From Halorientalis sp. IM1011 (GTDB taxonomy: Archaea; Halobacteriota; Halobacteria; Halobacteriales; Haloarculaceae), in the NCBI RefSeq assembly GCF_001989615.1, contig NZ_CP019067.1, positions 2,914,001 to 2,978,000 on the forward strand: 64,000 nucleotides of DNA, given 5' to 3'. The position numbers and the translations under genes were made by a program. The notes under the pieces were generated by a model that was not told where the DNA came from, ran no database searches, and was given only the letters and a program-made list of their open reading frames with translations. This document shows positions 11,196 to 56,906 of the stretch, in pieces. How positions within the stretch are numbered: the first letter of the stretch is position 1; each line of letters starts with the position of its first letter.

Positions 11196-11207
11196 CGAAC
11201 GTGTTCG
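11196..11207. promoter_or_regulatory. NarO-type box CGAACGTGTTCG
   Basis: Perfect CGAAC-N2-GTTCG palindrome, 38 nt from the start of the NnrS-like gene (11157). This spacing recurs at most boxes in the window and places the site just upstream of where a TATA element would sit in a leaderless promoter, consistent with an activator site. Confidence 0.75.
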
Positions 11208-11230
11208 CCAGGGATCGGGCGAGCGGTCGC

Positions 11231-11461
11231 TCAGGCGTGTTCGATGTCGACGTGGAACTCGTCGGGCCCGACCCGTTCGGTCTCGTGGGTGAACCCGCGC
11301 TGTTCCAGCACCGCGTACAGCGGTTCGGGCTCGAAGCTGTTGATCAGGCGCAGCCGCTCACCGTCGGGGAGGTCGTCGAGGGCCGCCATGATGTCGTCGA
11401 ACGGTTCACCGTCGATGTCGCGCACGTCGAGCCGTCTGTGGGTGGGGATATCCTGGCTCAT
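11231..11461 (-). CDS. DUF2249 (SirA/TusA-like fold) protein
   Basis: 76 residues covering essentially one DUF2249 domain: the opening LDVRDI, the central GERLRLINSFEPEPLY and a closing beta strand. The fold resembles SirA/TusA sulfur-carrier proteins, but the conserved CPxP cysteine is absent; there is no cysteine at all. Stand-alone DUF2249 proteins cluster with denitrification genes in haloarchaea; their biochemical role is not established. It has its own box at 11499. Three more copies of the domain occur in this window (52260, 53100 and fused to Mrp at 37648). Confidence 0.75.
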   Translation of the reverse strand: MSQDIPTHRRLDVRDIDGEPFDDIMAALDDLPDGERLRLINSFEPEPLYAVLEQRGFTHETERVGPDEFHVDIEHA

Positions 11462-11498
11462 ACTTCGAGGTTCGTGAGAACTGCGGTCCGTCTTGTCC

Positions 11499-11510
11499 CG
11501 GACATGTTCG
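11499..11510. promoter_or_regulatory. NarO-type box, one mismatch (CGGACATGTTCG)
   Basis: Lies 37 nt before the DUF2249 start at 11461. One base differs from the CGAAC half-site. It is preceded on the plus strand by the end of the next minus-strand gene, so it can serve only this DUF2249 gene or the cassette leftward of it. Confidence 0.6.
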
Positions 11511-11527
11511 ACCCGTCGGTGGGACGA

Positions 11528-11824
11528 TCACTCGATCGTTCGCGGTTCGTCGCCGGTATCGAGCGGGACGGGGTCGGCGTCCTCGTCGAGATCGTGGGTG
11601 GAGTAGCGCCGGACCGCCTCCGCGGGGCAGAGCCACACGTCGTCGGCGAACCAGGCGAACAGCTTCGTCGCCTGTTCGTAGGCCACGTCGGCGTCGGGGG
11701 CGGTGACGCTCCCGACGTAGCGCATGCGGCCGTCGCTCTCTTCGCGGACGAACACCTCCCACTCGCGTTCGGTAGCGTCCCGCGGTGCATCGCCGACGCG
11801 GGCGCGTTCGGGTTTCTCGACCAT
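11528..11824 (-). CDS. PaaB-like small protein, Htur_1727-type candidate RiPP precursor
   Basis: 98 residues. The core EWEVFVRE...VGSVTAPDADVAYEQATKLFAW...DDVWLCPA resembles the PaaB fold (small subunit of phenylacetyl-CoA epoxidase), but no other paa genes are nearby. From memory, haloarchaeal proteins of this length and with the ending STHDLDEDADPVPL...DEPRT are classed as Htur_1727-family partners of radical SAM enzymes, that is candidate RiPPs. No radical SAM gene adjoins it; the only one in the window is at 54892. A NarO-type box (11862) precedes it at the usual distance. Assignment to the RiPP family is by recall and should be tested by profile search. Confidence 0.6.
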   Translation of the reverse strand: MVEKPERARVGDAPRDATEREWEVFVREESDGRMRYVGSVTAPDADVAYEQATKLFAWFADDVWLCPAEAVRRYSTHDLDEDADPVPLDTGDEPRTIE

Positions 11825-11861
11825 GGATATCGTCAGCAGTCGGACGGCGAATCAGTTGTGC

Positions 11862-11873
11862 CGAATCCGTTCG
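11862..11873. promoter_or_regulatory. NarO-type box, one mismatch (CGAATCCGTTCG)
   Basis: Lies 37 nt before the PaaB-like gene start at 11824, abutting the multicopper oxidase stop at 11874. The spacing matches the other boxes, which supports it despite the mismatch. Confidence 0.6.
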
Positions 11874-13037
11874 TCACATCTCGTAGCCGGCGTAGTCCAT
11901 CAGGTCGGCGAAGATGTCGGTGTCCATCGCCTCCTCGTAGACGATGCCGGTGACCATGCCGCCGGGGTAGGACGCGGCGGCGTCGAGGCCGTTCGTGGCG
12001 TGGTTGACCTTGTGACAGTGCATCAGATAGATGCCGGGCTCGGCGTTGGCCTCGAACTCGATGGTGCGTCGCTGTGCGGGTGCGACGTTGACGATGTCCT
12101 GTTCGACGCGGAGCGCGTCGGGGAGCTGGGTGCCGTCCTTCTCGACCACTTCGAACCGGTGATTGTGCGTGTGCATCGGGTGGGCCATGTACCCGCCGAC
12201 GTTCACGAGGTGGACCCGGACCGTATCGCCCTTGCTGACGATCAGCGGCGAGCCGTCCTCCGGGTGCAAGGTACGGGGCAGGGACCGGCCGTTGATCGTG
12301 AACACGTCTGCCTTGCGGTGGTGGGCGCTGTAGCTCACGTCCTCGCCGCCGTACATTCGTGAGAGCCGGGAGTCCCAGTCCTTGACGGTGAGGAAGTACT
12401 CGCGGTCGGCCTCCTGATACCCCTCGGGATCGACCCGGAAGATACCGTACATCCCCATCTCGATGTGCTGGTGGGTCTGGTAGTGGCAGTGATAGCCGTG
12501 GGTCCCGGGGGTGTTGGCGGGGATCTCGTAGGTGTGTTTCTCGCCGGCCGGGACCTGAATCCCGGAGGTCGTCGGGACGCCGTCGTCCTTCCAGGCCTTC
12601 TGGACGCCGTGGAAGTGGACGGTGTGGGGCCGCTTGCCGTCGGTGTTGTCCAGCGTCACGTCGATAACGTCACCCTCCTGTGCACGCAGGACGGGGCCCG
12701 GAACGCTGGGCTGGCCGTCGTCGGCCGCGAACGCCCACACTCGTGGGAGTTCGATGGGACCGCCAAGCGAGTCCTCGGGATGGACCGGGAGCCGTGCCGG
12801 CACGGTCTTCAGCGTGACCTCGTTACCCTGCTCTGCGAGGTCGACCATCTCCGGCGGGGCCGCGGCTGGCAGCGACGACTGGTTCGACTTGGACGACTGG
12901 GTCGTCGCCGTTCCGGCGCTATCTGCGCGCGGCGCGCCCTGACAGCCGGCCAGGGCGACGGCCGTCGCACCACTGGTAGCCTTCACGAAATCGCGACGCG
13001 AGAACCGCGTTCCCGGCGCACTCATCTGATCACTCAT
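11874..13037 (-). CDS. Tat-exported multicopper oxidase
   Basis: 387 residues. The N-terminus has a twin-arginine signal (SRRDFVKA) and a lipobox-like LAGC, so it is folded inside, exported and probably lipid-anchored. Two cupredoxin domains carry all four HxH copper motifs: HFHG and HCHYQTHQH in the first, HPMHTHNH and HCHKVNHATNG in the second. The first HCH is followed by a GMxG methionine suited to a type-1 copper. This is the arrangement of two-domain laccase-like oxidases that reduce O2, or of a nitrite-reductase relative. ATG 13037 is preferred over 13022 because a TATATA element lies 26-31 nt upstream. A NarO-type box lies further upstream at 13105. Confidence 0.82.
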   Translation of the reverse strand: MSDQMSAPGTRFSRRDFVKATSGATAVALAGCQGAPRADSAGTATTQSSKSNQSSLPAAAPPEMVDLAEQGNEVTLKTVPARLPVHPEDSLGGPIELPRVWAFAADDGQPSVPGPVLRAQEGDVIDVTLDNTDGKRPHTVHFHGVQKAWKDDGVPTTSGIQVPAGEKHTYEIPANTPGTHGYHCHYQTHQHIEMGMYGIFRVDPEGYQEADREYFLTVKDWDSRLSRMYGGEDVSYSAHHRKADVFTINGRSLPRTLHPEDGSPLIVSKGDTVRVHLVNVGGYMAHPMHTHNHRFEVVEKDGTQLPDALRVEQDIVNVAPAQRRTIEFEANAEPGIYLMHCHKVNHATNGLDAAASYPGGMVTGIVYEEAMDTDIFADLMDYAGYEM

Positions 13038-13062
13038 GACACCACGATGTTTGGGGGATTGA

Positions 13063-13068
13063 TATATA
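13063..13068 (-). promoter_or_regulatory. TATA element of the multicopper oxidase gene
   Basis: TATATA at 26-31 nt before ATG 13037, the spacing expected of a leaderless haloarchaeal transcript. Among the box-linked genes this one has an unusually strong TATA. Confidence 0.55.
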
Positions 13069-13104
13069 CCTCACGTGGGTATTCCAACGGTCCGGGAATT
13101 GAAT

Positions 13105-13116
13105 CGAACGTGTTCG
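13105..13116. promoter_or_regulatory. NarO-type box CGAACGTGTTCG between divergent genes
   Basis: Perfect palindrome in the divergent gap between the multicopper oxidase (start 13037, 67 nt away) and the DUF389 protein (start 13202, 85 nt away). The distance to either gene differs from the usual 37-43 nt; relative to the oxidase TATA it lies about 36 nt upstream. Confidence 0.65.
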
Positions 13117-13201
13117 GCCCAGAAACGTTCCGAATCGGCCCGGCTCCCTGGCCTGCACACGCTGGGGAAGTCCTTTCGAGGGGAGACGGTGTACCCGGCC
13201 T

Positions 13202-14536
13202 GTGCGGCTGCTCCACCTCTCGGTTCCAACGGAGGACCGTGACGCGGTGGTCGACACTATCGAGGAGGGCGAGTTCGGATACTTCGAGACGGTCGGTGGG
13301 GGTGACCGGGACGACCACACGCTCGTCTCGGTCGTCGTGCCGGCCGACGCGGTCGAACACGTCCTCGAGGACCTCGACGCGGCCGGGTACGACGACTCGA
13401 CGTTCACCGTGTCGGTCGAAACCCAGTTCGCGAACTTTCCCGGGATCGACGGGATACAGGACGCGTGGGCCGACACGCCGAACAAATTGGCTCCGCGGAC
13501 GCTCCGCTCGAAGGCCAAGGACATGCGGTACAACACGCGGGCGTATCTCTGGATGATGATCCTGGCCGCCGTCGTCGCCGTCGCAGGCCTCCTGCTTGCC
13601 TCCCCCGCCGTGGTCGTGGGGTCGATGGTCATCGCACCCATCGTCAGCCCGATGCTGACCGCGAGCGTCGGGGCCGTCCGCAGCGACCGGGCGATGCTGT
13701 ACGAGAGCCTCAAGATGCAGGTCGCCGGCCTGATCGTGGCGACCCTCGCCGCCGCCGCGTTCAGCCTCGCCGTCAAGGAGTTTTTCGCCGTCCCGCAGGC
13801 GCTCGCGATCACGAGCCTCGAACTCGTCGCCTTGCGGACCTCGCCCGGACTGTTGTCGATCACCGTCGGGTTGGCGGCCGGTGCGGCCGGTGCCTTCGGC
13901 CTGGCGACGAAGGGTCAGGTGAGCATCGTCGGCGTCATGATCGCTGCGGCGTTGATCCCCACGGCCGGCGTCGCCGGGATCGGGCTGGCGTGGGCCGAGT
14001 TCCAGCTCGGCCTCGGGGCGCTGGTGTTGCTGTTCGCGACGATCGTGGCGGTGAACGTCGGCGCGTTCTCGATGCTGTGGTATCTCGGCTATCAGGACGA
14101 ACCGGGACCGGGAAGGCCCATCTCGACCGATTCGCTCGGGCGGACGCTGCAGGTCGGGGGGACCTTCTTCCTCATCTTCGTCATCGTGGCGTTCGTCGCC
14201 GTCGGGTTCGTCCAGCAGAGCGCTTTCGAGCGGACGGCCAACGGTGCCGCGACGGACGTGTTGAACCGCGCGGAGTACCAGGGGCTGGAAGTCACGGAGT
14301 CGTCCTACGAATACACCGGTATCGGCCCGTTCACGACCCCGACGAGCGTCACTTACTCGATCCGACGGACGAGCGACAGGGCACACGCGAACCTTCCGAG
14401 GGCACTCGACCGGCGCATCGCAGCGGCGACGGGCGCGAACGTCACCGTTCAGGTCCGGTTCGTCGACTACCAGGTGTCGGGGACCGGATCGGACGCAGGC
14501 CCCCGACCCGGGAGAGCCACCACCGCCCGCGGATAA
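13202..14536 (+). CDS. TIGR00341/DUF389 family membrane protein
   Basis: 444 residues starting with GTG. The N-terminal 110 residues form a soluble ferredoxin-like domain (RLLHLSVP start). Then come five or six membrane helices with the family signature SMVIAPIVSPMLTASVG near residue 141 and a matching AALIPTAGVAG near 250. A C-terminal soluble domain of about 90 residues ends the protein. The family is widespread, with no established function (possible channel or transporter). Divergent from the multicopper oxidase. Confidence 0.78.
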   Translation: MRLLHLSVPTEDRDAVVDTIEEGEFGYFETVGGGDRDDHTLVSVVVPADAVEHVLEDLDAAGYDDSTFTVSVETQFANFPGIDGIQDAWADTPNKLAPRTLRSKAKDMRYNTRAYLWMMILAAVVAVAGLLLASPAVVVGSMVIAPIVSPMLTASVGAVRSDRAMLYESLKMQVAGLIVATLAAAAFSLAVKEFFAVPQALAITSLELVALRTSPGLLSITVGLAAGAAGAFGLATKGQVSIVGVMIAAALIPTAGVAGIGLAWAEFQLGLGALVLLFATIVAVNVGAFSMLWYLGYQDEPGPGRPISTDSLGRTLQVGGTFFLIFVIVAFVAVGFVQQSAFERTANGAATDVLNRAEYQGLEVTESSYEYTGIGPFTTPTSVTYSIRRTSDRAHANLPRALDRRIAAATGANVTVQVRFVDYQVSGTGSDAGPRPGRATTARG

Positions 14537-14609
14537 CTGGGGAGGCGCCACTTCGTGGCCGCTCGCCACCACGACCAAAATCTATTTGGGCCTCTCCGTC
14601 GTGGCTGTG

Positions 14610-14639
14610 AGCAAGCTCGCTTGCTATAGATAAAGCAAG
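14610..14639. promoter_or_regulatory. Candidate operator overlapping the TATA box of the CbiX-like gene
   Basis: AGCAAGC (14610-14616), TC, GCTTGCT (14619-14625) is a perfect 7-bp inverted repeat. A further AGCAAG occurs at 14634-14639. The TATAGATAAA element at 14624-14633 lies between them, about 20-27 nt before ATG 14651. A protein binding here would block the promoter, as for metal- or haem-responsive repressors. Confidence 0.5.
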
Positions 14640-14650
14640 ATTGTATACAT

Positions 14651-15436
14651 ATGGTCGAGGACACACTCGTACTCGTCGGGCAGGAGGGAACACACGCCAG
14701 GGAGACGCTGGCGACCCACGCGGAACGGATCGAGCGACGCGGTGCGGTCGACGTAGCCCACGCGGTCACGTACGCAGAGGAGCCGGGTCGGGAACTCCGG
14801 GACCGGTTTCGGGACGTCGAGGGCGGCATCGTCTACGTACTGCCGGCGTCGCTGGCCCACAGTCGCGAGACGACGGACGTGTTACCCCGGACGTTCCCCG
14901 CGTTCGAGGGGACGGTCCGGTACTGTGAACCCGTCGGCGCGAGCCCTGCCATCACGAGACTGGTGATAGAGCGCGCGGCCGCCTTGACCGAACCGGGATC
15001 CGACGCCACGCTCGTCCTCGTCGGACAGGGGAGCAGTTCCCAGCCCTACCACCGGCAGATGGTCGAGTACCACGCCACCCGGATCGCCGACCGTACCGAC
15101 TACGCCGCCGTCGAGCCTTCCTACCTCCTGCAGAACCCCGCCGTCGAGTGTGTCCGCTATGCCGTGGAGACCGACCGATCGGTCGCCGTCCCGCTCTTTC
15201 TGACAGCGAACGCGACGACCGACCACCGGATCCCCGCGAAACTCGAACTCCACCGCGGCGGAATGGCCTACGCCGACCCGCTGGGTGACCACCCGCTCGT
15301 GACCGACGCCATCGAAGGCGAGATCACCCGACAACGCGCTCTAGCGGCCACAGATCGTGCCCAACCCGCTTCCTTCGAGGACGCGCTGGTGCAGGGGGCG
15401 CGATCGGTCGCGACCGACGGCGAGGGACGGATCTAG
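14651..15436 (+). CDS. Divergent two-domain CbiX/sirohydrochlorin-chelatase-like protein
   Basis: 261 residues made of two CbiX-type domains (about 1-120 and 121-235). Both begin with the LVLVGQ strand, but the family's metal-chelating GHGS histidine is replaced: GQEGTH in the first and GQGSSSQPYH in the second. The second conserved histidine site (PLFL...H...IP) reads PLFLTANATTDHRIP, with the His shifted. It may therefore chelate metal differently or act as a non-catalytic relative. It stands outside the B12 operon, with its own palindromic operator overlapping the TATA box. The regular CbiX is at 29390. Confidence 0.62.
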   Translation: MVEDTLVLVGQEGTHARETLATHAERIERRGAVDVAHAVTYAEEPGRELRDRFRDVEGGIVYVLPASLAHSRETTDVLPRTFPAFEGTVRYCEPVGASPAITRLVIERAAALTEPGSDATLVLVGQGSSSQPYHRQMVEYHATRIADRTDYAAVEPSYLLQNPAVECVRYAVETDRSVAVPLFLTANATTDHRIPAKLELHRGGMAYADPLGDHPLVTDAIEGEITRQRALAATDRAQPASFEDALVQGARSVATDGEGRI

Positions 15437-15626
15437 CGCGGAGCATCCTCTGACCGAACCCGGCCCACAGGTGTCGACCGACCACGCGCCGTGTTCGTCC
15501 CGACCGTCTTTGCTAACATATTTGAGCGGAGGGCTCCTCGTTTACGGTATACGTGTATTCTCCGCTCCCCGGTGTCCAGCGACGCGCTCCCGTCTCGGAA
15601 CCGTTCACAGCCGACGGAGGTGAACT

Positions 15627-16361
15627 GTGAACCCGAGCCGCGTCGACTCGATAGTCGATCTCACCTATGGCCTGCTGATCGCCCTTTCAGTCGCGCTGAT
15701 CGTAGTCGCCGACAACGCCGTCGGGCTGGCGTTCGGGTTCGGGGTCCTGCTATCCTATCTCATCCACGTCGTCTGGAAGATGGCTCGCTTCGATCCGGAC
15801 TGGATGACCACGGCGGTCAAAGAGACCGTACAGGAGACCGTCGACGAGACGGTCGAAGAGAAAGTCGGCGAGACCGTGGAGAAGACCGTCGACGAAACGG
15901 TCGGCGAAACGGTCGAAGAGACGGTCGGTGAAACTGTCGAGGAAACCGTCGGAGAAACTGTCGAGGAGAAAGTCGGTGAAACTGTCGAGGAAACCGTCGG
16001 TGAAACTGTCGAGGAGACAGTCGAGGAAACCGTCGGAGAAACTGTCGAGGAAAAGGTCGGCGAGGCGGTCGAAGAGAAGGTCGGTGAGACGGTGGAGAAG
16101 ACTGTCGACGAAACCGTCGAGGAGAAAGTCGGTGAGACGGTGGAGAAGACCGTCGACGAAACCGTCGAGGAGACAGTGGGCGAAACGGTCGAGGAGACGG
16201 TCGGACAGGCGGTCGAGGAGAAGGTAACGGAGACCGTCGAGGAGACGGTCGAGGAGACGCTCGAAGAACAACTCGACGGTGACGAGGACGACGAGTCGAC
16301 CGACGAGGACGACGAGGCCGACGAATCGATCGACGAGAACGACGAGGACAGGTGGAACTGA
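15627..16361 (+). CDS. Membrane protein with long ExVx tetrapeptide repeat
   Basis: 244 residues from a GTG start. Two membrane helices (about residues 10-30 and 33-52) are followed by about 147 residues made almost entirely of four-residue units of the type ETVE, ETVG, EKVG, DETV, and then a very acidic tail of some 30 residues. Valine at every fourth position and Glu elsewhere suggests a long amphipathic helix or rod projecting into the cytoplasm. Its stop overlaps the start of the PiT transporter (TGATG), so the two are co-translated. The function is unknown; it may scaffold or regulate the transporter. Confidence 0.7.
   Translation: MNPSRVDSIVDLTYGLLIALSVALIVVADNAVGLAFGFGVLLSYLIHVVWKMARFDPDWMTTAVKETVQETVDETVEEKVGETVEKTVDETVGETVEETVGETVEETVGETVEEKVGETVEETVGETVEETVEETVGETVEEKVGEAVEEKVGETVEKTVDETVEEKVGETVEKTVDETVEETVGETVEETVGQAVEEKVTETVEETVEETLEEQLDGDEDDESTDEDDEADESIDENDEDRWN
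15822..16262 (+). repeat. 12-bp tandem repeat tract encoding ExVx units
   Basis: About 36-37 imperfect copies of a 12-bp unit near GAGACCGTCGAG run through the coding sequence. Copies group into higher-order 24- and 48-bp blocks, e.g. units reading ETVEETVG and EKVGETVEKTVD. Such tracts change length by slippage or recombination while keeping the frame. Confidence 0.85.
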
Positions 16362-17539: not shown

Positions 17540-17552
17540 ACGAACGACCAAC

Positions 17553-22985: not shown

Positions 22986-23019
22986 AACGTTGTTAAACCT
23001 CTGTTTACTTAACGCAAGT
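22986..23019. promoter_or_regulatory. Short divergent promoter region cobN / ChlID-like
   Basis: Only 34 bp separate the two start codons, and the region is markedly AT-rich against its surroundings. It holds AAAC-CTCT-GTTT (an inverted repeat) flanked by GTTAA and TTAAC. Both promoters must extend into the opposite coding regions. A GTTGTTA stretch resembles, with an insertion, the TACAAC motif at cbtB and cbiT. Confidence 0.45.
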
Positions 23020-26344: not shown

Positions 26345-26356
26345 CTAACATGTTCG
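26345..26356. promoter_or_regulatory. NarO-type box, one mismatch (CTAACATGTTCG), before the R2-like oxidase
   Basis: Located 43 nt before ATG 26400; a GTTAAT TATA-like element lies 28 nt before the same ATG. The match to box plus TATA spacing supports 26400 as the start and ties this gene to the denitrification regulon 23 kb away. Confidence 0.5.
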
Positions 26357-26399: not shown

Positions 26400-27503
26400 A
26401 TGCCTACGCGAACAGTTCCCGTGCCCACTGGTATGTCGATGCACGACATGGACGCGGTGGAGACGGGTCGCGTGGACACCGACAGCCAGTGGTACGAACT
26501 CTACCAGAAGGGGATCGAACTCGGGACGTGGGACGTTTCGAAACTCGTCGAGACCGTGGGGGTCGAGGAGGATCTGGCGGTGTGGAACTCGCTTGCGCCC
26601 GAGGAGAAAGAGCAGTGGGCGCGGCTGATCGCGGCGTTCGTCGATCTGGAACACGCAGTCGCCGAGGACGGCCGACGGATCATCGAGCAGATGGCGTCGC
26701 CGTATCTCGACGACTCCATCGAGAAGGAGATGTACGCGACGGTGTTCGCCATGACGGAGGCCAAACACACGCAGTTTTTCGACATGTACATCAACACCGT
26801 CATGAGCGACGTGTTCCCGGACACCCACCTCGACATCCGGCGTGGTGGGCAACCGCTTCCCCGCACGTCGGCCTGTGGCATGTCCAAACTCGGCGAGCGA
26901 CAGGGGGCACACATGGCGCTGGCGGCCAACAACGGCGATCCCGTCGAGATAGCCCGCGCCGCGACGACCTACCACATGATGGTCGAGGGCATCGCCGCCC
27001 GCGGCGGCTACTTCCTCAAGAACAACATGATGGCCGAAGCCCCGCTCCCGCTGCTCAACAAGGGGTTCCAGTTCGTCAGTACGGACGAGGGCCGCCACGT
27101 GACCCACGGGCTGGAACTACTCTCGGAACTGCTAGAGAAGGAACGAGAGGGGATCCCGGAGTACCAGGGCGTCGACGAGGCCATCTGGGAGGAGTCGCTG
27201 GAGTGTCTCCCCCACGTCATCGACACGGCTTACTTCGTCTCGGCGGCGATGGACGATCCGCTCGGCGCGGACTTCGACGGCCTCATCCAGCGCGGGATGG
27301 AGCTGTGGCACGCCCAGTTCGAGGAGACGCTGGATCTGGAGGCCTACGCCCCGAACACCTTCTCGAAGGTGGCCCAGCGTGCCGCGAACGAGGCCGACGA
27401 GACCGACTACGACGCCCGGATCGAACACCACGCCGAGACCTACGCGAAGAAACTCGACCTCGGCGAGGCGACCGTCGTCACCGGAGGTGTCGCGGATGAC
27501 TGA
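26400..27503 (+). CDS. R2-like ligand-binding oxidase (R2lox), ferritin-like di-metal protein
   Basis: 367 residues; would usually be labelled ribonucleotide reductase beta subunit. Metal ligands are visible as E84, E120-x2-H123, E196, E230-x2-H233. The residues that form the Val-Tyr ether cross-link in R2lox proteins are both at the right offsets: V87 (first ligand Glu +3) and Y191 (third Glu -5). No reductase large subunit is nearby. R2lox proteins carry a Mn/Fe centre and a bound fatty acid; their reaction is not known. The start at 26400 is supported by a TATA-like element and a NarO-type box. It overlaps the next small gene by 8 nt. Confidence 0.72.
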   Translation: MPTRTVPVPTGMSMHDMDAVETGRVDTDSQWYELYQKGIELGTWDVSKLVETVGVEEDLAVWNSLAPEEKEQWARLIAAFVDLEHAVAEDGRRIIEQMASPYLDDSIEKEMYATVFAMTEAKHTQFFDMYINTVMSDVFPDTHLDIRRGGQPLPRTSACGMSKLGERQGAHMALAANNGDPVEIARAATTYHMMVEGIAARGGYFLKNNMMAEAPLPLLNKGFQFVSTDEGRHVTHGLELLSELLEKEREGIPEYQGVDEAIWEESLECLPHVIDTAYFVSAAMDDPLGADFDGLIQRGMELWHAQFEETLDLEAYAPNTFSKVAQRAANEADETDYDARIEHHAETYAKKLDLGEATVVTGGVADD

Positions 27504-27768: not shown

Positions 27769-27774
27769 CCCCGC

Positions 27775-47729: not shown

Positions 47730-47730
47730 C

Positions 47731-49244: not shown

Positions 49245-49892
49245 ATGGCCGAGGGCATCCTCGCTACCGTCGCGGTCAGAGAACCGAACTGCTGTCCGGT
49301 CGCGCCGATGAGCTCGGACGGTCGCGTTCGGTCGGTCTCACAGGGTCACCCCGTCGACGGGAAAGTCACGGTCGAAGTGACGACCGACGAGTCCGTCTCC
49401 GGGGCGGACGTTCCTGGTGAGGAGATATTCAGCTACGAATCCGAGGCCATCCACCGCCTCGAACGGCAGGCCGATCAGGACTGCGCCTGCGAGCGCGTCG
49501 AGGCGCACGGGTGTCCGGTGCGGAACGTGACTGCAGCCGGTGGGGCGGTCAAACTATCCTTCATCGCGGAAGACCTCGGCGTGCTCCGGTCGGTGGTCGC
49601 GGACCTGCGCGAGACCGAGGAGGCCGTCACCGTCCGATCGCTGCGCCGTTCGGACGAGAACGGCCCTCACTCCGAACCGGTCTTCGTCGACAAATCCTCG
49701 TTCACGGCGCGCCAGCGGGAAGTGTTGCGGACGGCCCACAGACTGGGGTACTTCGAGCGCCCGAAAGGTGCGAACGCCGAGCAAGTCGCGACCGAACTCG
49801 GCGTCGCACCCTCGACGTTCGCGGAACACCTCGCGGCCGCCCAGACGAAACTGATGGCTGCGCTGTTCGATCCGACCGCCGACGGAAACTAA
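49245..49892 (+). CDS. narO: NarO-like cysteine-rich Bat-type transcriptional regulator
   Basis: 215 residues. The C-terminal HTH_10 domain has FTARQREVLRTAHRLGYFERPKGANAEQVA near residue 152. In the N-terminal half the cysteines are C16, C17 and C80-A-C82-x7-C90. That matches the CXnCXCX7C arrangement reported for NarO of Haloferax volcanii, where it is proposed to hold an iron centre sensing O2 and to activate nar, nir and dms genes. It is divergent from the nar operon and close to the boxes at 49912 and 51785. Best local candidate for the box-binding protein. Direct evidence is the cysteine spacing and context; the name is by resemblance. Confidence 0.78.
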   Translation: MAEGILATVAVREPNCCPVAPMSSDGRVRSVSQGHPVDGKVTVEVTTDESVSGADVPGEEIFSYESEAIHRLERQADQDCACERVEAHGCPVRNVTAAGGAVKLSFIAEDLGVLRSVVADLRETEEAVTVRSLRRSDENGPHSEPVFVDKSSFTARQREVLRTAHRLGYFERPKGANAEQVATELGVAPSTFAEHLAAAQTKLMAALFDPTADGN

Positions 49893-49911
49893 CCACCCCG
49901 TCGGACGAACC

Positions 49912-49923
49912 CGAACCAGTTCG
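49912..49923 (+). promoter_or_regulatory. NarO-type box CGAACCAGTTCG
   Basis: Perfect palindrome ending 38 nt before ATG 49962. It lies 20 nt after the regulator's stop, so it can be assigned only to the following gene. Confidence 0.75.
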
Positions 49924-49961
49924 GGACTGTACCCAGGGCGTGGCCGACCGTACCGTCTCGC

Positions 49962-50558
49962 ATGAACGTTCCCTCGCCGTTCTCCGCGGACGACCCCACG
50001 TTCGACGACTACGACGCGTTCGTCCCCGAGAGCGTCCCCGAACCCGGAGCGTACCTGACCGAACACGACGTGCTCGCGGGCCGAGAGCACGTCGCCTTTC
50101 ACCGCCTGACCCGCGAACTGTTCGACGAGCGCGGCGTCTACGACATGACCTTCGGCTACAACCTCGCGCGCCTGAACCTCGACGTGCGCCACCCCGACGC
50201 CGGCTACCGCTACGCGCGCGAGCGCGGCACCGTCGACGGCCCCGACGCCGGCGACCGTGACGTGTTGATCGCCGAGTTCACGCCGACGACCGAGTTCTGC
50301 CCCCAGAGCACGACGCTGGCGAAAGGATCCTTCCGGGCCTGGAACGGCCTCGCCGACCGCCACGAGTACGACCTCGTCCGGGTCCGGGTCGACGGCATGC
50401 ACCACAAGAGCGGCGTGATCAACGAGGAACTGCGCGACCACGAGGCCCGATATCTGGACTCCGGTGACCTCCCGGACGAACGTGGCGGCGCTGGCGGCGG
50501 ACAGACCGGCGTCCCGAACGAGGAGGGCTACGCCGAGGAGACGGGGACCCCCTTCTAG
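49962..50558 (+). CDS. Denitrification-linked protein of unknown function
   Basis: 198 residues, cytoplasmic, no membrane segment. A helix-rich N-terminal half is followed by a part reading EFTPTTEFCPQSTTLAKGSFRAW and a strand with VRVRVDGMHHKSGVINEELR. The single conserved-looking Cys in the CPQS motif and the nearby HH pair could bind a metal; the arrangement vaguely recalls MIP18/DUF59 iron-sulfur assembly proteins, but this is weak. Control by a NarO-type box at 49912 is clear from sequence. Its end overlaps the convergent NnrS-like gene by 4 nt. Confidence 0.68.
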   Translation: MNVPSPFSADDPTFDDYDAFVPESVPEPGAYLTEHDVLAGREHVAFHRLTRELFDERGVYDMTFGYNLARLNLDVRHPDAGYRYARERGTVDGPDAGDRDVLIAEFTPTTEFCPQSTTLAKGSFRAWNGLADRHEYDLVRVRVDGMHHKSGVINEELRDHEARYLDSGDLPDERGGAGGGQTGVPNEEGYAEETGTPF

Positions 50559-51745: not shown

Positions 51746-51784
51746 GGACGGCCAGTCACACGCCGGCGTGAAAAGCCCCGGTCC

Positions 51785-51796
51785 CGAACCGATTCG
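51785..51796. promoter_or_regulatory. Shared NarO-type box CGAACCGATTCG between two divergent genes
   Basis: One mismatch. It is 39 nt from the NnrS-like start (51745) and 38 nt from the cupin start (51835), so a single palindrome is placed to serve both directions at the same distance. Confidence 0.75.
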
Positions 51797-51834
51797 GGAC
51801 AACCGGCAGGGCGCGGCCGACGGTAGGACCGGGT

Positions 51835-52206
51835 ATGCCAGCCACGGACGTCGACAGCGAGCGGGTCTACGACGACGATCAGTTCAGCGCGCAGGGCGTG
51901 TTCAAGACCGAGCGCTCCAAGGCCGTTTGCGCGTACTTCGAGCCCGGGCAGTTCATCCCGGTCCACGCACCCGACAGCGACGTGACCGTCGTGGTCCAGT
52001 CCGGAACGGGAATCGTCAGGGACGGCGATACCGACCACGCCGTCGTACCCGGTTCGGTGGTGAGCGTCCCCGCCGGTCGCGACCGGGGCATCAAAGCGGA
52101 CGACGACGAGCGCCTCGAAGCCGTCATGGTGGTCGCGCCGCCGCCCTCGGACGCCGAACACGAACCCGTCCGCCGGGGCATCCGCGAGGGCGAGTTCGAG
52201 CCCTGA
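51835..52206 (+). CDS. Small cupin-fold protein
   Basis: 123 residues with a cupin core: PGQFIPVHAPDSDVTVVVQSGTG, then VPGSVVSVPAG. Only one histidine is at the usual metal positions of the first motif (VHAP), so metal binding may be weak or altered. Cupins of this kind are sensors or small enzymes; here the promoter is shared with the NnrS-like gene, so a role in NO or nitrite response is likely but unproven. Confidence 0.72.
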   Translation: MPATDVDSERVYDDDQFSAQGVFKTERSKAVCAYFEPGQFIPVHAPDSDVTVVVQSGTGIVRDGDTDHAVVPGSVVSVPAGRDRGIKADDDERLEAVMVVAPPPSDAEHEPVRRGIREGEFEP

Positions 52207-52208
52207 AC

Positions 52209-52220
52209 CGAACACGTTCG
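52209..52220 (+). promoter_or_regulatory. NarO-type box CGAACACGTTCG
   Basis: Perfect palindrome 39 nt before the DUF2249 gene at 52260 and only 2 nt after the cupin stop. Confidence 0.78.
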
Positions 52221-52259
52221 GGGCAATCCGGAGGCGTCCCGAGGGGGAACTGTCGGTGT

Positions 52260-52487
52260 ATGCCAGAAATCGACGTGCGCGAGGTTCCGCCGAAGGAGCG
52301 CCACCCCAAGATCATGGACGCGTTCGCGGACATGGACGCGGGTGAGACCCTCCGGCTGATCAACGACCACGATCCCAAGCCGCTGTACTACGAGATGGAC
52401 GCGGAGGTCGAGGACTTCGACGCCGACAACTACGAGGTGCGCCGCGAGGCAAAAGAAAAATTCGTCGCGGAGTTTCCCAAACGGTGA
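52260..52487 (+). CDS. DUF2249 family protein
   Basis: 75 residues: IDVREVPPKERHPKIMDAFADM, then GETLRLINDHDPKPLYYEM. It has no cysteine, so it cannot carry sulfur as TusA does. The domain is the same as at 11231 and 53100. It has a NarO-type box at the standard distance and shares the TGATG junction with the next cupin gene, so they form an operon. Confidence 0.78.
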   Translation: MPEIDVREVPPKERHPKIMDAFADMDAGETLRLINDHDPKPLYYEMDAEVEDFDADNYEVRREAKEKFVAEFPKR

Positions 52488-52786
52488 TGGCCGAAACCAT
52501 CGCACTCGACGAGTTGACCGCGTCGCCCCACGCCAAACTGTTCGACGAGCCGCTGACGATCCGACTCGAACTGGCAGCGGGCGAGCGCGTCGACCCGCAC
52601 ACTCACCCCGAGCGAACGGTCGTCCTGCACCTGCTCTCGGGGGAAGTGGAACTCGATCTGGACGACGAGACTCACGAGCTGGAATCGGACGACGTGATCC
52701 GGTTCGACGGCCGCCGCGAGGTATCACCGAAAGCCGTCACGGACAGCGAGGCGCTGCTCGTCCTCTCGAAACGCGTCGAGGACTAG
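52487..52786 (+). CDS. Cupin-domain protein coupled to DUF2249
   Basis: 99 residues. The cupin motif has HTHPERT near residue 39 and a second motif around SDDVIRFDG; two His and one Glu could bind a metal. It is translated from the ATG overlapping the stop of the DUF2249 gene. It ends in a 4-nt overlap with the convergent gene. It may be a small redox or metal enzyme of the NarO regulon. Confidence 0.72.
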   Translation: MAETIALDELTASPHAKLFDEPLTIRLELAAGERVDPHTHPERTVVLHLLSGEVELDLDDETHELESDDVIRFDGRREVSPKAVTDSEALLVLSKRVED

Positions 52787-53103
52787 TCGCCGAACAACTC
52801 GAGCGCGACCCGCACCGCGTCGTCGCCGTCGGGGTGGCGATCCGACGAGGCCGTCGCGGTCCGCAGGGCTTCTTTCGGCGTCGCGATCAGCCGCTCGGTG
52901 AGCCGGGTGGCCACACGCCGGACTGCAGCGCGGGTCTCGGGGTCGGTGTCGTCGTGCGAATCGAGTTCCGACAGCGCGCGCTCGACTTGTCGATCCCGAA
53001 CTGCGGCCGCACGGTCGTCGATCCGCTCGATGGTCCGGGCCACGTCGGGCGCTCGGTCCTCGGCGGCGGATGCCTCTTCGGGGGGCTCGGTGCTCGCCGT
53101 CAC
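52783..53103 (-). CDS. Stand-alone protein resembling the dimerisation domain of glutamyl-tRNA reductase
   Basis: 106 residues, all helical. The stretch RQVERALSEL...VRRVATRLTERLIATPKEALRTA resembles the C-terminal dimerisation helix region of HemA (LTxxLLHxPxxxLR). There is no catalytic or NADPH domain, so it cannot be an active reductase. It is cotranscribed with the DUF2249 gene (overlap of 4 nt) under the box at 53417. Possible roles: regulating HemA during haem-demanding denitrification, or a decoy partner. Similarity is moderate and read by eye. Confidence 0.6.
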   Translation of the reverse strand: MTASTEPPEEASAAEDRAPDVARTIERIDDRAAAVRDRQVERALSELDSHDDTDPETRAAVRRVATRLTERLIATPKEALRTATASSDRHPDGDDAVRVALELFGD

Positions 53104-53378
53104 GGTCGCCAGATCACGGTCACGACGGCCGCGTCCAGTTCGACGGTGCCGTACTCGTACCCGCGGTCGTCGAGTTTCGGGTAGAGGTGCTGGGGCGCGC
53201 GGTCGTTGAGCTGTATCAGGACCGTCTCGTCGTCCAGTTCCGCGAGCCGCTCCAAGGTGTTTTTCAGCGGCTTCGGCGGCCCGAGGTCGCGTGCGTCGAG
53301 CCGGTCACGCGGGGCCTCGGGCGGTGCACCCGTCTCGTCGACGGCCAGTCGGGCGGTCTCGGTCGGTTCGGTTCCCAT
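53100..53378 (-). CDS. DUF2249 family protein
   Basis: 92 residues: a disordered acidic start of about 25 residues, then the DUF2249 fold with LDARDLGPPKPLKNTLERLAEL and DDETVLIQLNDRAPQHLYPKL. Again no Cys. ATG 53378 lies 38 nt from the box at 53417, which supports this start rather than 53453. Operon with the GluTR-like gene. Confidence 0.75.
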   Translation of the reverse strand: MGTEPTETARLAVDETGAPPEAPRDRLDARDLGPPKPLKNTLERLAELDDETVLIQLNDRAPQHLYPKLDDRGYEYGTVELDAAVVTVIWRP

Positions 53379-53416
53379 ACTTCCCTGTTTCTCGTCACCG
53401 CCCCCAACCCTTATCC

Positions 53417-53428
53417 CGAACGCGTTCG
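53417..53428 (-). promoter_or_regulatory. NarO-type box CGAACGCGTTCG (leftward)
   Basis: Perfect palindrome, 38 nt before the leftward DUF2249 gene. It is one of a pair in a divergent promoter; the sister box at 53439 serves the rightward gene. Confidence 0.78.
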
Positions 53429-53438
53429 GACGAAATGC

Positions 53439-53450
53439 CGAACATGTTCG
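53439..53450 (+). promoter_or_regulatory. NarO-type box CGAACATGTTCG (rightward)
   Basis: Perfect palindrome 38 nt before ATG 53489 and 22 bp (centre to centre) from the leftward box, two helical turns. Symmetric spacing to both genes argues strongly for functional sites. Confidence 0.8.
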
Positions 53451-53488
53451 CAAACACCTACTGGTCCGCGCGTGGACAACTCTGACCC

Positions 53489-54145
53489 ATGCCTCGAGCG
53501 AAACTGAGCGTCAAACTGCCGCAGGCGGCCTGGATCGGGGATCTCTCGACGGACTACCCGGACGTGGAGTTCAGGGTGCTGGCGGCCCTGCCGACCGGGG
53601 AGACGGGTGTCGGTCTCGTGGAACTGAGCGGGCCGAACCTGCCGGAGGTGATCAAACGGATCCAGGAGCGTGAGACCATCGTGTCGCTGGATCTGCTGGG
53701 GGAGTCCGACGACCGGACGCTGATCCAGTTCGAGACGACCGAGCCCCTCCTGTTGTTCTCGGTCAAGGAGTCGGGGATCCCGCTGGAACCGCCGGTCGAG
53801 ATTCTCGACGGACACGCCACCGTCGAGGTGACCGCGTCCCAGGATCGGCTGTCGACCTTCGGGTCACAGCTCGAACAGTTCGGGATGAGCTTCGACGTGG
53901 AGTACGTCCGGCGGACGGTCGACTCGACGGACCAGTTGCTGACCGACCGCCAGCGCGACCTGATCGTCGCGGCGGTCCAGCAGGGGTACTACGACACGCC
54001 CCGCGAGTCGTCGCTGACGGAGCTGGCCGATCACCTCGGAATGGCGAAATCGACGGTCAGCGAGACGCTCCACCGCGCCGAGGAGACCGTCGTCAAGGAG
54101 TTCGTCGCGGAACTCGACGACGGACTGATCGCCGAGGCCCAGTGA
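53489..54145 (+). CDS. Bat-type HTH_10 regulator without cysteines
   Basis: 218 residues. The C-terminal helix-turn-helix is of HTH_10 type (LTDRQRDLIVAAVQQGYYDTPRESSLTELADHLGM near residue 151). The N-terminal part (about 140 residues) is a bacterio-opsin-activator-like sensory domain and lacks the Cys cluster of the NarO-like protein. The box at 53439 puts it inside the regulon, so it may be a second-layer regulator of NO or nitrite genes. Confidence 0.77.
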   Translation: MPRAKLSVKLPQAAWIGDLSTDYPDVEFRVLAALPTGETGVGLVELSGPNLPEVIKRIQERETIVSLDLLGESDDRTLIQFETTEPLLLFSVKESGIPLEPPVEILDGHATVEVTASQDRLSTFGSQLEQFGMSFDVEYVRRTVDSTDQLLTDRQRDLIVAAVQQGYYDTPRESSLTELADHLGMAKSTVSETLHRAEETVVKEFVAELDDGLIAEAQ

Positions 54146-54195
54146 CGCCTCTTCCTACAGCGTGAGAACACCAGCCCCCGGTTTTGGTGTCGGGC

Positions 54196-54207
54196 CGAGA
54201 ACGTTCG
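54196..54207 (+). promoter_or_regulatory. Degenerate NarO-type box at the start of the second Cys-rich regulator
   Basis: CGAGAACGTTCG, two mismatches, ends 3 nt before ATG 54211. Unlike the other boxes it lies downstream of the TATA-like TTTT element at 54182. A site there would be suited to repression, for example by the gene's own product. Confidence 0.35.
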
Positions 54208-54210
54208 AGT

Positions 54211-54876
54211 ATGAGCACGACCGAACCCGATCCCGTTCAGGCCGGTGTCAGGGTGACCCTCGCGATAACCCAGCCCCGTGAGTGTCCGCTCGCGGTCGCG
54301 TCGACCGACGCAGGGGCCCGGGTCGAGTCAGTCGCCCGGACCAGTTGCGGGTCACAGAACAGCACGAGTACCGAGTTTACCGTCCAGACGGATTCGACAG
54401 CCGACGGTATCGACGCCGATCCGGTGTTCCGGACCGAGGAAGGGGTTCGCTATCGCTGTCAGTGCGAGGCCGAGTCCTGCATCACCGATCTGGTCGAGAG
54501 CTACGGCTGTCCGGTCAGCGACGTCCACGCCGTCGACGGGACGCTGTATCTGGTGTTCTACGCACCGGATGCGGACCGCGTCCGGGATATCGTCGCGGCG
54601 GCCCGCGAGCGGTTCGACGACGTGGCCGTCCGCAACCTCAGCCAGTCCGGCGAACTGGTCGGCAACGGCTTCGTCACCGTCGACACCGCCCGGCTGACCG
54701 CGCGCCAGCGCGAGGTGCTCTCGACCGCCTTCGAGATGGGCTACTTCGACTACCCGAAAGGAGCGAACGCCGAGGAGGTAGCGGCCGAACTGGAGATTTC
54801 GCCGTCGACGCTCGCCGAACACCTCGCCGCGGCCCAGCAGAAGGTCCTCGGCCCGGTCGCCCGCGAGTCCGTCTAG
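54211..54876 (+). CDS. Second cysteine-rich Bat-type regulator (NarO paralogue)
   Basis: 221 residues, same plan as the protein at 49245: a Cys-rich N-terminal region and an HTH_10 domain (LTARQREVLSTAFEMGYFDYPKGANAEEVAAEL, near residue 157). Cysteines here are C25, C46, C83-x-C85-x4-C90 and C100, spaced unlike the NarO arrangement and with two additional ones. It may sense a different redox state or gas (NO versus O2). ATG 54211 is the first in the conserved frame. Confidence 0.75.
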   Translation: MSTTEPDPVQAGVRVTLAITQPRECPLAVASTDAGARVESVARTSCGSQNSTSTEFTVQTDSTADGIDADPVFRTEEGVRYRCQCEAESCITDLVESYGCPVSDVHAVDGTLYLVFYAPDADRVRDIVAAARERFDDVAVRNLSQSGELVGNGFVTVDTARLTARQREVLSTAFEMGYFDYPKGANAEEVAAELEISPSTLAEHLAAAQQKVLGPVARESV

Positions 54877-54891
54877 GGCAGGTCGGTCCGG

Positions 54892-55986
54892 CTAATCGCC
54901 CGTCGCTCCGTCCCCAGTCCTGCCGTCGGCCGTCCACCCCTCGGGAACGTGCGGGCAGAGCGGGTCGCTCGCCAGCGGATCGCCGGTCGTCGCGTACGCC
55001 CGCGACCGGCTCCCCCCACAGACGTGCCGGAACTCACAGGCCCCGCACTTCCCGGTGAGGGCGTCCCGGTCCCGCAGATCGGTGAACAGGTCGGAGTCCC
55101 GGTACAGGTCCACGAGGTCGTCCTCGGGGACGGTGCCGGCGGCCTCGGGGAGGAACCCGGAGGGGAACACGTCGCCGGTGTGGCTCACGAACGCGAAGCC
55201 GTCGCCAGCGACGATACCGCCCCTGCGTCGCAGCCCGGCGTCGGCGGCGTCTTCACCCGCCTCGGCCCGTCGCTGGAGCTTCACGCGCCGGTAGTGGGGT
55301 GCTTCGGTCGTCTTGACGCCGAACGGCTCCTCGTCGGCGGTTTCGGCGAGCCACTCCATCACCCGATCGGCCCGTTCGGGCGCGATGGGGTCGAGCAACC
55401 TCCCACGGCCGACCGGGACGAGGAAGAAGACGCTCCAGAGGACGGCCCCGAGTTCGCGGACCCGCTCGCGGATCGCCGGCAACTGATCGACCGTCTCGGC
55501 ACAGACCGTCGTGTTGATCTGGAGGGGGAGCCCGGCCTCGCGGGCGTCCGCCGCGGCTTGCATCGTCGCCTCGAAACTCCCGGTCTCCCCGCGGAAGGCG
55601 TCGTGGCGCTCGGCGTCGCCACCGTCGAGGCTGAGGGCCATCCGCCGGAGGCCGGCTTCTGACAGGTCCTCCAGCACGTCGGCCGTCAACTCGTCGGTCC
55701 CGCTCGGGGTCAGCGACATGCTCAACCCGACCTCGTCCCCGTAGCGGACGAGGTCGGTGAGATCGGGGCGTTTGCACGGATCGCCGCCGGAGAGGACGAC
55801 GAGCTGGTTCTCGCCGAACTCGCGGGCCGAATCGAGCAGGGCCTTTCCCTCCTCGGTCGTGAGTTCGTCGGGGTGGCGCGCAGACTGTGCGTCGGCCCGG
55901 CAGTGTTCACAGGCGAGTTCGCAGGCCTGCGTGACCTCCCAGATCAACACCATGGGCCGCCGACTCGTATCGAGGTCTCGGTTCAT
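54892..55986 (-). CDS. Radical SAM/SPASM protein, TIGR04053-type
   Basis: 364 residues. The radical SAM cluster is C22-x3-C26-x2-C29 (CELACEHC), followed by LSGGDP. The C-terminal SPASM-type extension has CGACEFRHVCGG and a last DPLCP, for extra 4Fe-4S clusters. Such enzymes modify peptides (RiPPs) or act in haem d1/alternative haem synthesis (NirJ/AhbC). The gene begins 62 nt after the CGCGG-type small gene on the same strand and has no promoter-like box of its own, so the pair look like an operon. Confidence 0.8.
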   Translation of the reverse strand: MNRDLDTSRRPMVLIWEVTQACELACEHCRADAQSARHPDELTTEEGKALLDSAREFGENQLVVLSGGDPCKRPDLTDLVRYGDEVGLSMSLTPSGTDELTADVLEDLSEAGLRRMALSLDGGDAERHDAFRGETGSFEATMQAAADAREAGLPLQINTTVCAETVDQLPAIRERVRELGAVLWSVFFLVPVGRGRLLDPIAPERADRVMEWLAETADEEPFGVKTTEAPHYRRVKLQRRAEAGEDAADAGLRRRGGIVAGDGFAFVSHTGDVFPSGFLPEAAGTVPEDDLVDLYRDSDLFTDLRDRDALTGKCGACEFRHVCGGSRSRAYATTGDPLASDPLCPHVPEGWTADGRTGDGATGD

Positions 55987-56048
55987 GAGTCAGAGTGAAT
56001 ATCGAGTGTTTGTAACGACGGGCGCGGATTCCCACGGGCCGGGAACGA

Positions 56049-56354
56049 TCACTGGTCCACGTGGACGCGGGTGACGTGGCCGCCACAGCCGCACTGCTCG
56101 ACGTACTCGTAGTCGACGGCGTCGCCGTAGGCCGCGTCGAGTTCCTCGTACAGGTACGTCTCCGGGTGGCCGTGATCGCCGTGGGTCACGAGGTTGACGT
56201 GGTTGCCCGGCTCGGTGTGGTCGACGGCATCGCGGGCCTGCGCCAGAACCAGTTCCCTGTCCTCGGCGTGGTGAGGTTTCTCCAGGTTCGCCGACCAGGA
56301 GTTGTCGTGGGTCCGCTCCGTCACCGGCTCGACCGTGTCGTGTGAGGCAGTCAT
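56049..56354 (-). CDS. CGCGG-type candidate RiPP precursor
   Basis: 101 residues, rich in His and acidic residues. It has no Cys until the near-terminal CGCGG (residues 88-92), followed by HVTRVHVDQ. NCBI-type family descriptions (from memory) call such proteins CGCGG family rSAM-modified RiPPs, the modified site being the CGCGG block. Upstream and downstream genes fit: a radical SAM/SPASM enzyme immediately follows. Start ATG 56354 lies 41 nt from the perfect box at 56396. The product is unknown; a role under denitrifying conditions is inferred from the promoter. Confidence 0.72.
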   Translation of the reverse strand: MTASHDTVEPVTERTHDNSWSANLEKPHHAEDRELVLAQARDAVDHTEPGNHVNLVTHGDHGHPETYLYEELDAAYGDAVDYEYVEQCGCGGHVTRVHVDQ

Positions 56355-56395
56355 CTCGTCTCGACGTTGTCCCTCCTTCGTCGAACACTCTTGGC

Positions 56396-56407
56396 CGAAC
56401 ATGTTCG
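56396..56407 (-). promoter_or_regulatory. NarO-type box CGAACATGTTCG (leftward, RiPP operon)
   Basis: Perfect palindrome, 41 nt before the CGCGG gene start. With the sister box at 56435 it forms another divergent arrangement, the second serving the beta-grasp gene. Confidence 0.78.
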
Positions 56408-56434
56408 AGCCGCTGCGGCGACGACAGGACTCGC

Positions 56435-56446
56435 CGAATATGTTCG
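56435..56446 (+). promoter_or_regulatory. NarO-type box, one mismatch (CGAATATGTTCG)
   Basis: Ends 37 nt before ATG 56484 of the beta-grasp gene. A CATAGTTTTGG stretch follows, where a weak TATA element may lie. Confidence 0.65.
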
Positions 56447-56483
56447 GCCCATAGTTTTGGGGGACGAGCGCCTAATTGGTGCC

Positions 56484-56888
56484 ATGACAGGCACAGCCGT
56501 CGAGTCGGGAACCGGGAGCGACGGGCGAGAGACGACGGTGACGGTGAAGTGTACGGGCCACGTCCGAACGGAAGTGGGCGAGCCCCGACTGGAGTTTCCC
56601 TTCGAGGGAACGACGTTACGGGAGTTCCTCGACGCCTTCTTCGCCGAGTACGACGTGGCCGACATGCTCATCGCCGAGACGGAGGCGGAGGCAACGACCC
56701 GTGGCTGGGCACCCGTCGAGGAGGAACTGCCCGGGACGTGGAACGCGAATCCTGAGGGCGAACAGACGCGTGCGTACGCGCGTGTCCTCGTCAACGGCCG
56801 GTTCAACGAGTCACTGGACGGCCTCGACACCGCGCTGGCGGACGGTGATCGGGTCGCGCTCGTCTATCCGTTCATGTTCTGCCTATAA
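56484..56888 (+). CDS. Beta-grasp (MoaD/ThiS-like) protein lacking the GG tail
   Basis: 134 residues. The ubiquitin-like pattern is visible: VTVKCTGHVRTEVGEPRLEF, TTLREFLDAFFAEYDVADML, then after an insertion, YARVLVNGRFNESLDGLDTALADGDRVALVYP. Instead of the Gly-Gly end used for sulfur transfer or conjugation, it ends PFMFCL. It therefore cannot be activated as MoaD or ThiS are, unless the Cys acts. The gene is upstream of nirK in the same direction and has its own NarO-type box. It may be a scaffold or modified carrier in NirK or cofactor maturation. Confidence 0.65.
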   Translation: MTGTAVESGTGSDGRETTVTVKCTGHVRTEVGEPRLEFPFEGTTLREFLDAFFAEYDVADMLIAETEAEATTRGWAPVEEELPGTWNANPEGEQTRAYARVLVNGRFNESLDGLDTALADGDRVALVYPFMFCL

Positions 56889-56894
56889 GGTATC

Positions 56895-56906
56895 CGAACC
56901 GGTTCG
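56895..56906 (+). promoter_or_regulatory. NarO-type box CGAACCGGTTCG before nirK
   Basis: Perfect palindrome 110 nt before ATG 57017, farther than at other genes; a transcript starting at the usual distance would carry a leader of about 72 nt. It lies 6 nt after the beta-grasp stop. Confidence 0.7.

Follow-up and report, generated by a model that had tools for sequence, protein, structure and literature searches.

In Haloferax mediterranei, the motif CGAAYATDKTYG has been described upstream of nirK, nor, nos and, less well, nar, with 83 promoter regions in all (PMC10062603, PMC11218638). According to the accessible parts of these papers, point mutations in the motif significantly lower the activity of the nos and nor promoters, and the box lies 79, 66 and 69 nucleotides (nt) from nirK, nor and nos, respectively (PMC10062603, PMC11218638). 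In the same species, eight copies of the motif lie in the 12.5 kb nirK-nor cluster, which also includes two DUF2249 genes and E6P09_00735, a bacterioopsin-activator-like gene put forward there as a candidate regulator (PMC10062603, PMC11218638). The 2024 paper on H. mediterranei calls the identity of the protein reading the motif undisclosed, and our literature searches on the reader and the spacing rule, assessed from their result lists, led to no further paper naming the reader. Here we analyse a 64,000-nt stretch of the genome of Halorientalis sp. IM1011 (contig NZ_CP019067.1, positions 2,914,001 to 2,978,000), called the window below, in which CGAAC-N2-GTTCG boxes precede nirK and a set of neighbouring genes. 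The window is an instance of a real, largely published regulon, to which this analysis adds the assignment of a reader and a 38-nt spacing rule. From sequence comparison, we consider it likely that the boxes serve a single activator as its operator. The predicted activator is the 218-residue HTH_10 protein encoded at 53489..54145 on the plus strand, here named BatR; it would turn on a nitrogen-oxide regulon by binding immediately upstream of the probable TFB-recognition element (BRE).

The window resembles the H. mediterranei system in having the same palindrome before nirK and before DUF2249 and HTH_10/bacterioopsin-activator-like genes, and before nor elsewhere in the genome. The reported position of E6P09_00735 within that nirK-nor cluster makes it a candidate batR orthologue. 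The difference lies in the two central bases of the consensus, which vary here: compared with CGAAYATDKTYG, three of 13 window sites fit exactly, five have one mismatch and five have two. Eight exact boxes occur in the window, against a mean of 0.40 and a maximum of two in 100 dinucleotide shuffles. When one mismatch is allowed, 24 palindromes are observed, 16 of them with a mismatch, against 7.0 expected. A preliminary description of this DNA had listed eight perfect palindromes with a chance expectation below one, and had placed 11 of its 13 boxes 37-43 nt from a start codon. All eight were found in place by sequence scan, the shuffles agree with the estimate, and the measured distances from box end to start codon again give 11 of 13, the exceptions being the boxes at 13105 (67 or 85 nt) and 56895 (110 nt, nirK). 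The five one-mismatch boxes on that list are five of the 16 such sites and were evidently chosen for their position before genes.

The spacing was measured in the window and 29 named haloarchaeal loci gathered via NirK (four of 33 loci were excluded as not haloarchaeal). Among pairs of an exact box and an ATG, 34 of 96 stand at 38 or 39 nt. Boxes with at most one mismatch give 47 pairs at 38 nt and 19 at 39 nt, against approximately 1.8 per distance outside the range 30-46 nt. Eight permuted palindromes together yielded one pair at 36-41 nt; this control and the shuffles rule out a chance origin of the boxes. A promoter logo was built from 73 sites at 37-39 nt, of which 13 were dropped for poor coding frames and 60 were kept. 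The 39 sites at exactly 38 nt have G at -38 (87%), G at -37 (74%) and R at -36 (95%), A at -34 and -33 (44% and 64%), a weak T at -28 (51%) followed by W at -27 (87%), and W and A at -11 and -10 (85% and 82%); the bases directly following the box thus tend towards G-G-R-N-A-A. For Haloferax volcanii, available accounts propose the promoter elements BRE CGAAA, TATA TTWT and -10 WW, and give 72% of protein-coding transcripts as leaderless. The simplest reading is that the box abuts the expected BRE position of leaderless promoters that mostly lack a good TATA box. Transcription of most 38-nt genes would start at the ATG, so that 38 nt would be a fixed distance to the transcription start. The class-wide peak at 38-39 nt and the abutment on the BRE are additions of this analysis to the published motif; the accessible text of the H. 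mediterranei accounts contains neither of these, nor the class-wide target set (PMC10062603, PMC11218638).

Targets were first collected from sample A, 20 stretches from 18 genomes chosen around box matches. They hold 78 box-ATG pairs at 36-42 nt, and in 68 of these the gene encodes a relative of a window protein; at exactly 38 nt this holds for 49 of 51. The targets are DUF2249 proteins (20), the CGCGG-family candidate for a ribosomally synthesized and post-translationally modified peptide (RiPP; 11), NnrS-like proteins (10), BatR (eight), ThiS-like proteins (six), the conserved 198-residue protein of the window (five) and cupins (five), with a radical S-adenosylmethionine (SAM) protein, an R1-like and an R2-like gene once each. 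The batR gene is preceded by a box at 37-39 nt in eight of these box-selected stretches. Sample B was not selected by box and consists of every seventh BatR-bearing genome, 32 including that of the window, 25 of them with a RiPP over the cut-off. An in-frame RiPP start with a box of at most one mismatch at 37-43 nt was found in 22 of these 25, some genomes offering several candidate starts; second RiPP copies in G049, G154, G189 and G196 have no box. The other NnrS-like genes in the named nirK loci have a box at 37-41 nt in three of seven cases. The family of the 198-residue protein is represented in 12 other named nirK loci, with a box of at most one mismatch 38 nt from a start in nine; this unnamed family is probably linked to nitrogen oxides. 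The TIGR04053 radical SAM gene beside the RiPP gene has a box at 38 nt in L101; in the window, no box was found within 200 nt of this gene (54892-55986), though the adjoining RiPP gene has one. In one genome (L105, minus strand), a gene 38 nt from a box encodes what we take to be a protoporphyrinogen-oxidase-like protein, a possible link to heme supply.

The window encodes two regulators of the NarO/DmsR family, both combining DmsR_N (PF24277) with HTH_10: R1 (49245..49892, plus strand), with five cysteines including a CXCX7C pattern whose spacing we take to be that of NarO, and R2 (54184..54876, plus strand), with six cysteines. The same domain pair occurs in a third protein outside the window. 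BatR has neither DmsR_N nor cysteines. The preliminary description had pointed to the nearby NarO-like protein, R1, as the obvious reader.

The candidates were compared by means of a strict signature (box, G-S-R-N-N-R, W-A at -11/-10, ATG), designed from the logo, which included the window and related loci. It was found in 100 of 242 haloarchaeal genomes; the reversed pattern had one match in all, but this control has different dinucleotides, is likely biased low and was given little weight. A looser signature, CGAAYNNRTTCGN{37,39}ATG, was discarded as too noisy, as it occurs in 237 of the 242 genomes, BatR-less ones included. Nearly all of the genomes have a BatR homologue: they fall into 21 without one better than E 1e-20, 11 with weak homologues only (E 1e-28 to 1e-33) and 210 with good ones; the 11 were first counted as BatR-less, and the strict 21 are reported separately. 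The strict signature is present in 0 of 21, 0 of 11 and 100 of 210 genomes of these classes, that is, in none of the BatR-less genomes and in 100 of the 221 others. Permutation within families gives 7.7 expected among the 21 against 0 observed, and none of 20000 permutations gave 0. The distribution over DmsR_N is different: the signature is present in 90 of 208 genomes with a match and 10 of 34 without (p=0.14), where the status of 14 of the 34 is inferred from absence among the matches listed. Thus the box is not confined to genomes with a NarO/DmsR-type protein. BatR is encoded less than 15 kb from NirK in 52 of 96 genomes with both places among the matches listed. The corresponding figure for NirK and DmsR_N, 1 of 64, was set aside because it covers part of a list of best-scoring matches from which even R1 and R2 are missing. 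In the 29 named nirK loci, BatR is nearby in 14, and relatives of R1 or R2 in two plus one partial match. R1 was rejected as the obvious reader, since the strict signature goes with BatR and not with DmsR_N.

Two BatR-less genomes of one genus, G069 and G124, have both NirK and RiPP over the cut-offs and a DmsR_N match. In neither do the 400 nt upstream of nirK contain a box, even when two mismatches are allowed, and the 10 kb examined contain no box of at most one mismatch that has an ATG 35-43 nt away; each has one distant box of at most one mismatch, with no start at 35-43 nt. Thus, targets present together with BatR and box both absent were observed in two genomes of one genus.

By a reading of the two lists by eye, 17 of the 100 genomes that carry the strict signature lack a NirK above the family cut-off, three of them with intermediate scores, and therefore the regulon extends beyond denitrification. 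The denitrification regulon proposed in the preliminary description is supported as a box-marked nitrogen-oxide regulon, given its conservation in haloarchaea and the H. mediterranei publications, but not as one of denitrification alone.

A number of observations weigh against BatR as the reader. The 21 BatR-less genomes are mostly poor in targets as well, with NirK over the cut-off in two and RiPP in two; the absence of boxes there is partly expected under any reader, because most of these genomes lack targets, and G069 and G124 are the only informative cases. None of the 11 genomes with weak BatR has the strict signature, yet four of these have looser boxes before RiPP, in keeping with a BatR-like reader there; the weak BatR homologues in the four are 36-55% identical in their best pieces. 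It is also absent from 110 of the 210 genomes with good BatR. A NarO/DmsR-type gene lies less than 5 kb from batR in 13 of 77 genomes (among the matches listed), all of one genus. In the window itself, the stretch 3' of the nirK box has no G-G-R-N-A-A. According to the available text, the H. mediterranei narG promoter departs from the box, no regulator of haloarchaeal denitrification other than NarO of H. volcanii has been described, and the NarO paper is quoted as reporting a similar motif (PMC10062603, PMC11218638). Finally, three NarO/DmsR-type genes are preceded by boxes, which NarO autoregulation would explain as well.

The strongest alternative, that R1 or R2 reads the box, is in our judgement unlikely. 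It draws on the family membership and cysteine pattern of R1, on the standing of NarO and on the three boxed genes just mentioned, as expected for an autoregulated reader. These are an R1-like and an R2-like gene in L101 and L107, with boxes at 38 nt, and the third NarO/DmsR-type gene of the window's own genome (C1, L187:8802-14386, approximately 68 kb before the window), whose box has one mismatch and likewise stands at 38 nt. However, some NarO-type genes may, judging by these boxes, be targets rather than sources of the regulation. Besides its presence in DmsR_N-less genomes, the strict signature is found in 0 of 27 genomes that have DmsR_N but no good BatR (10 of the 27 with weak BatR). 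The recognition helices of R1 and R2 are unlike that of BatR, relatives of R1 and R2 are rare near nirK, and H. mediterranei has the motif although, according to its authors in the text available, it has no NarO homologue (PMC10062603, PMC11218638). The third NarO/DmsR-type gene and a type II DMSO-reductase-like operon are arranged head to head.

Less probable still is that BatR and NarO-type proteins, with their shared HTH_10 fold, both read the same or overlapping boxes and together integrate nitrogen-oxide and oxygen signals. Both families are present in 181 of 242 genomes, boxes precede both kinds of regulator gene, and in the accessible reports high activity of H. mediterranei promoters needs low oxygen plus nitrate or nitrite; against this, the recognition helices of the two differ and strict boxes exist without DmsR_N. 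That the palindrome, abutting the expected BRE position, is a general core-promoter feature of haloarchaea and not an operator is very improbable, given its 44 exact copies in 3.78 Mb, the restriction of its targets to the same few families and the absence of the strict signature from the 21 BatR-less genomes.

BatR has an HTH_10 domain (E 1.2e-17 in a Pfam search) and, as in its alignment of relatives, a strongly conserved recognition helix. It shares HTH_10 with Bat-type regulators but not their PAS and GAF sensor domains: a profile search detected neither, and the BAT domain matched weakly (E 0.008). There are no cysteines in BatR and no invariant ones in the alignment of its relatives. A structural model (predicted local distance difference test 79, predicted template modelling score 0.55) has two ferredoxin-like repeats followed by the helix-turn-helix, the repeats being our own reading from the order of strands and helices; a fold search with the model gave no informative match. 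One BatR relative has a sub-threshold match to HVO_0513_N, on which we found no paper. A contig of a metagenome-assembled genome labelled Nitrososphaeria (L044:324-2479) encodes a NirK 43% identical to that of the window beside a BatR-like HTH_10 gene (26%), with no box of at most one mismatch.

The whole genome (3.78 Mb) contains 44 exact boxes, including the eight of the window. Among the 36 others, 20 lie within long coding-type frames by our filter; the 16 left over include the box of the nor promoter. The idea that every exact genomic motif is functional was therefore rejected. The expectation that the motif stands before starts rather than inside genes partly fails for the bare palindrome, but holds for the motif combined with its spacing. 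As in the published system, boxes are found before both nirK and nor, at 110 and 67 nt here against 79 and 66 nt; the nor gene lies 530 kb away from the window, and the box 67 nt upstream of its ATG is exact. The nirK distance of 110 nt recurs, with one mismatch in the box, in Halorientalis persicus and Halorientalis regularis (L016, L017), and distances of 79 or 80 nt are found in three genera (L032, L042, L043). For 12 of the remaining named nirK loci, no box with at most one mismatch was observed in the roughly 200 nt next to nirK. A Shine-Dalgarno-like GGTGA stands 6 nt 5' of the nirK start in the window (57017) and in the same five loci, L016, L017, L032, L042 and L043, which is consistent with a nirK mRNA that has a leader, whereas the other boxed genes are likely leaderless. 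The box distances would imply leaders of about 72 nt for nirK and about 29 nt for nor. Elsewhere in the same genome (C1, about 400 kb away; L188:1916-3733), an exact box lies 92 nt before a gene for a small membrane protein, which is followed by a gene for a protein with four DUF2249 stretches.

Genes of the window were identified by Pfam and NCBIfam profile searches of its proteins. In the left part, the exact box CGAACACGTTCG (11196..11207, minus strand) stands 38 nt before the gene of an NnrS-like membrane protein (9787..11157, minus strand), a name taken from the preliminary description; the searches gave no NnrS profile match for it, and weak matches to COX1/ccoN profiles. One-mismatch boxes at 11499..11510 and 11862..11873, both on the minus strand, lie 37 nt before a 76-residue DUF2249 gene (11231..11461, minus strand; profile E 5e-21) and 37 nt before a PaaB-like gene (11528-11824, minus strand). 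The exact box at 13105..13116, not assigned to a strand, is between a multicopper oxidase gene (11874-13037, minus strand; 67 nt), which has a TATA-like stretch of its own, and a DUF389 gene (start 13202, plus strand; 85 nt). A one-mismatch box at 26345..26356 (plus strand) lies 43 nt before an R2-like oxidase gene (26400-27503). The 13-site set of the preliminary description is upheld in part: the boxes at 11862, 13105 and 26345 have no cross-species support in the named nirK loci.

In the right part, the gene of the 198-residue protein (49962..50558, plus strand), a regulon member with no Pfam or NCBIfam match, has an exact box at 38 nt (49912..49923, plus strand); no box with at most one mismatch was found in the 200 nt upstream of R1. 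A one-mismatch box (51785..51796, plus strand) lies 38 nt before a cupin gene (51835..52206, plus strand), and an exact one (52209..52220, plus strand) 39 nt before a 75-residue DUF2249 gene (52260..52487, plus strand) that overlaps a second cupin gene (52484). Two divergent exact boxes follow, one (53417..53428, minus strand) 38 nt before a third DUF2249 gene (53100-53378, minus strand) and the other (53439..53450, plus strand) 38 nt before batR, a predicted autoregulatory site. The radical SAM/SPASM protein TIGR04053 (54892..55986) and the CGCGG-family RiPP candidate, TIGR03995 (56049..56354; 141 bits), are both encoded on the minus strand, the latter with an exact box at 41 nt (56396..56407, minus strand). 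A one-mismatch box (56435..56446, plus strand) lies 37 nt before a ThiS/MoaD-like beta-grasp gene (56484..56888, plus strand), and the exact box at 56895..56906 (plus strand) 110 nt before nirK, the copper nitrite reductase gene (57017..58144, plus strand; TIGR02376, 374 bits), whose closest named relative is that of Halorientalis persicus (89% identity).

The boxes are regarded as activator sites because box mutations lower the activity of the nos and nor promoters in H. mediterranei. A BatR dimer bound to the palindrome beside the BRE would hold or recruit TFB at promoters that have no good TATA box, and BatR would activate its own gene via the box at 53439. The NarO-like proteins would be additional regulators that act in part downstream; candidate signals for BatR are low oxygen, nitric oxide and nitrite. 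Two proteins, OxsR of H. volcanii and EarA of Methanococcus maripaludis, show a likeness to this proposed action, though their motifs and signals differ; OxsR belongs to the TrmB family, and EarA is not known to be an HTH_10 protein. In the accessible parts of the respective papers, the OxsR motif activates from upstream of BRE/TATA (PMC9426492), and for EarA, recruitment of TFB to a weak BRE has been suggested (PMC5512572). A broader proposal is more tentative, and we put it, taken as a whole, at somewhat below even chances: BatR may be the missing class-wide master activator of nitrogen-oxide metabolism. It would read its box at a constant distance of 38 nt from the start of transcription, substitute for TATA by holding TFB on the adjacent BRE, activate itself and control a core module of NnrS-like, radical-SAM-modified CGCGG peptide, ThiS/MoaD-like and DUF2249 genes, also in the 17 strict-box genomes that lack a NirK above the cut-off; NarO-type oxygen sensors would be its subordinates or partners.

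In many haloarchaea, the architecture of box, 38 nt and ATG predicts which genes belong to the regulon and where their transcription starts. The box pattern ties the CGCGG RiPP, DUF2249 proteins, the 198-residue protein and the ThiS/MoaD-like protein to nitrogen-oxide handling, and its class-wide distribution points to one gene, batR, as encoding the probable reader of the motif.

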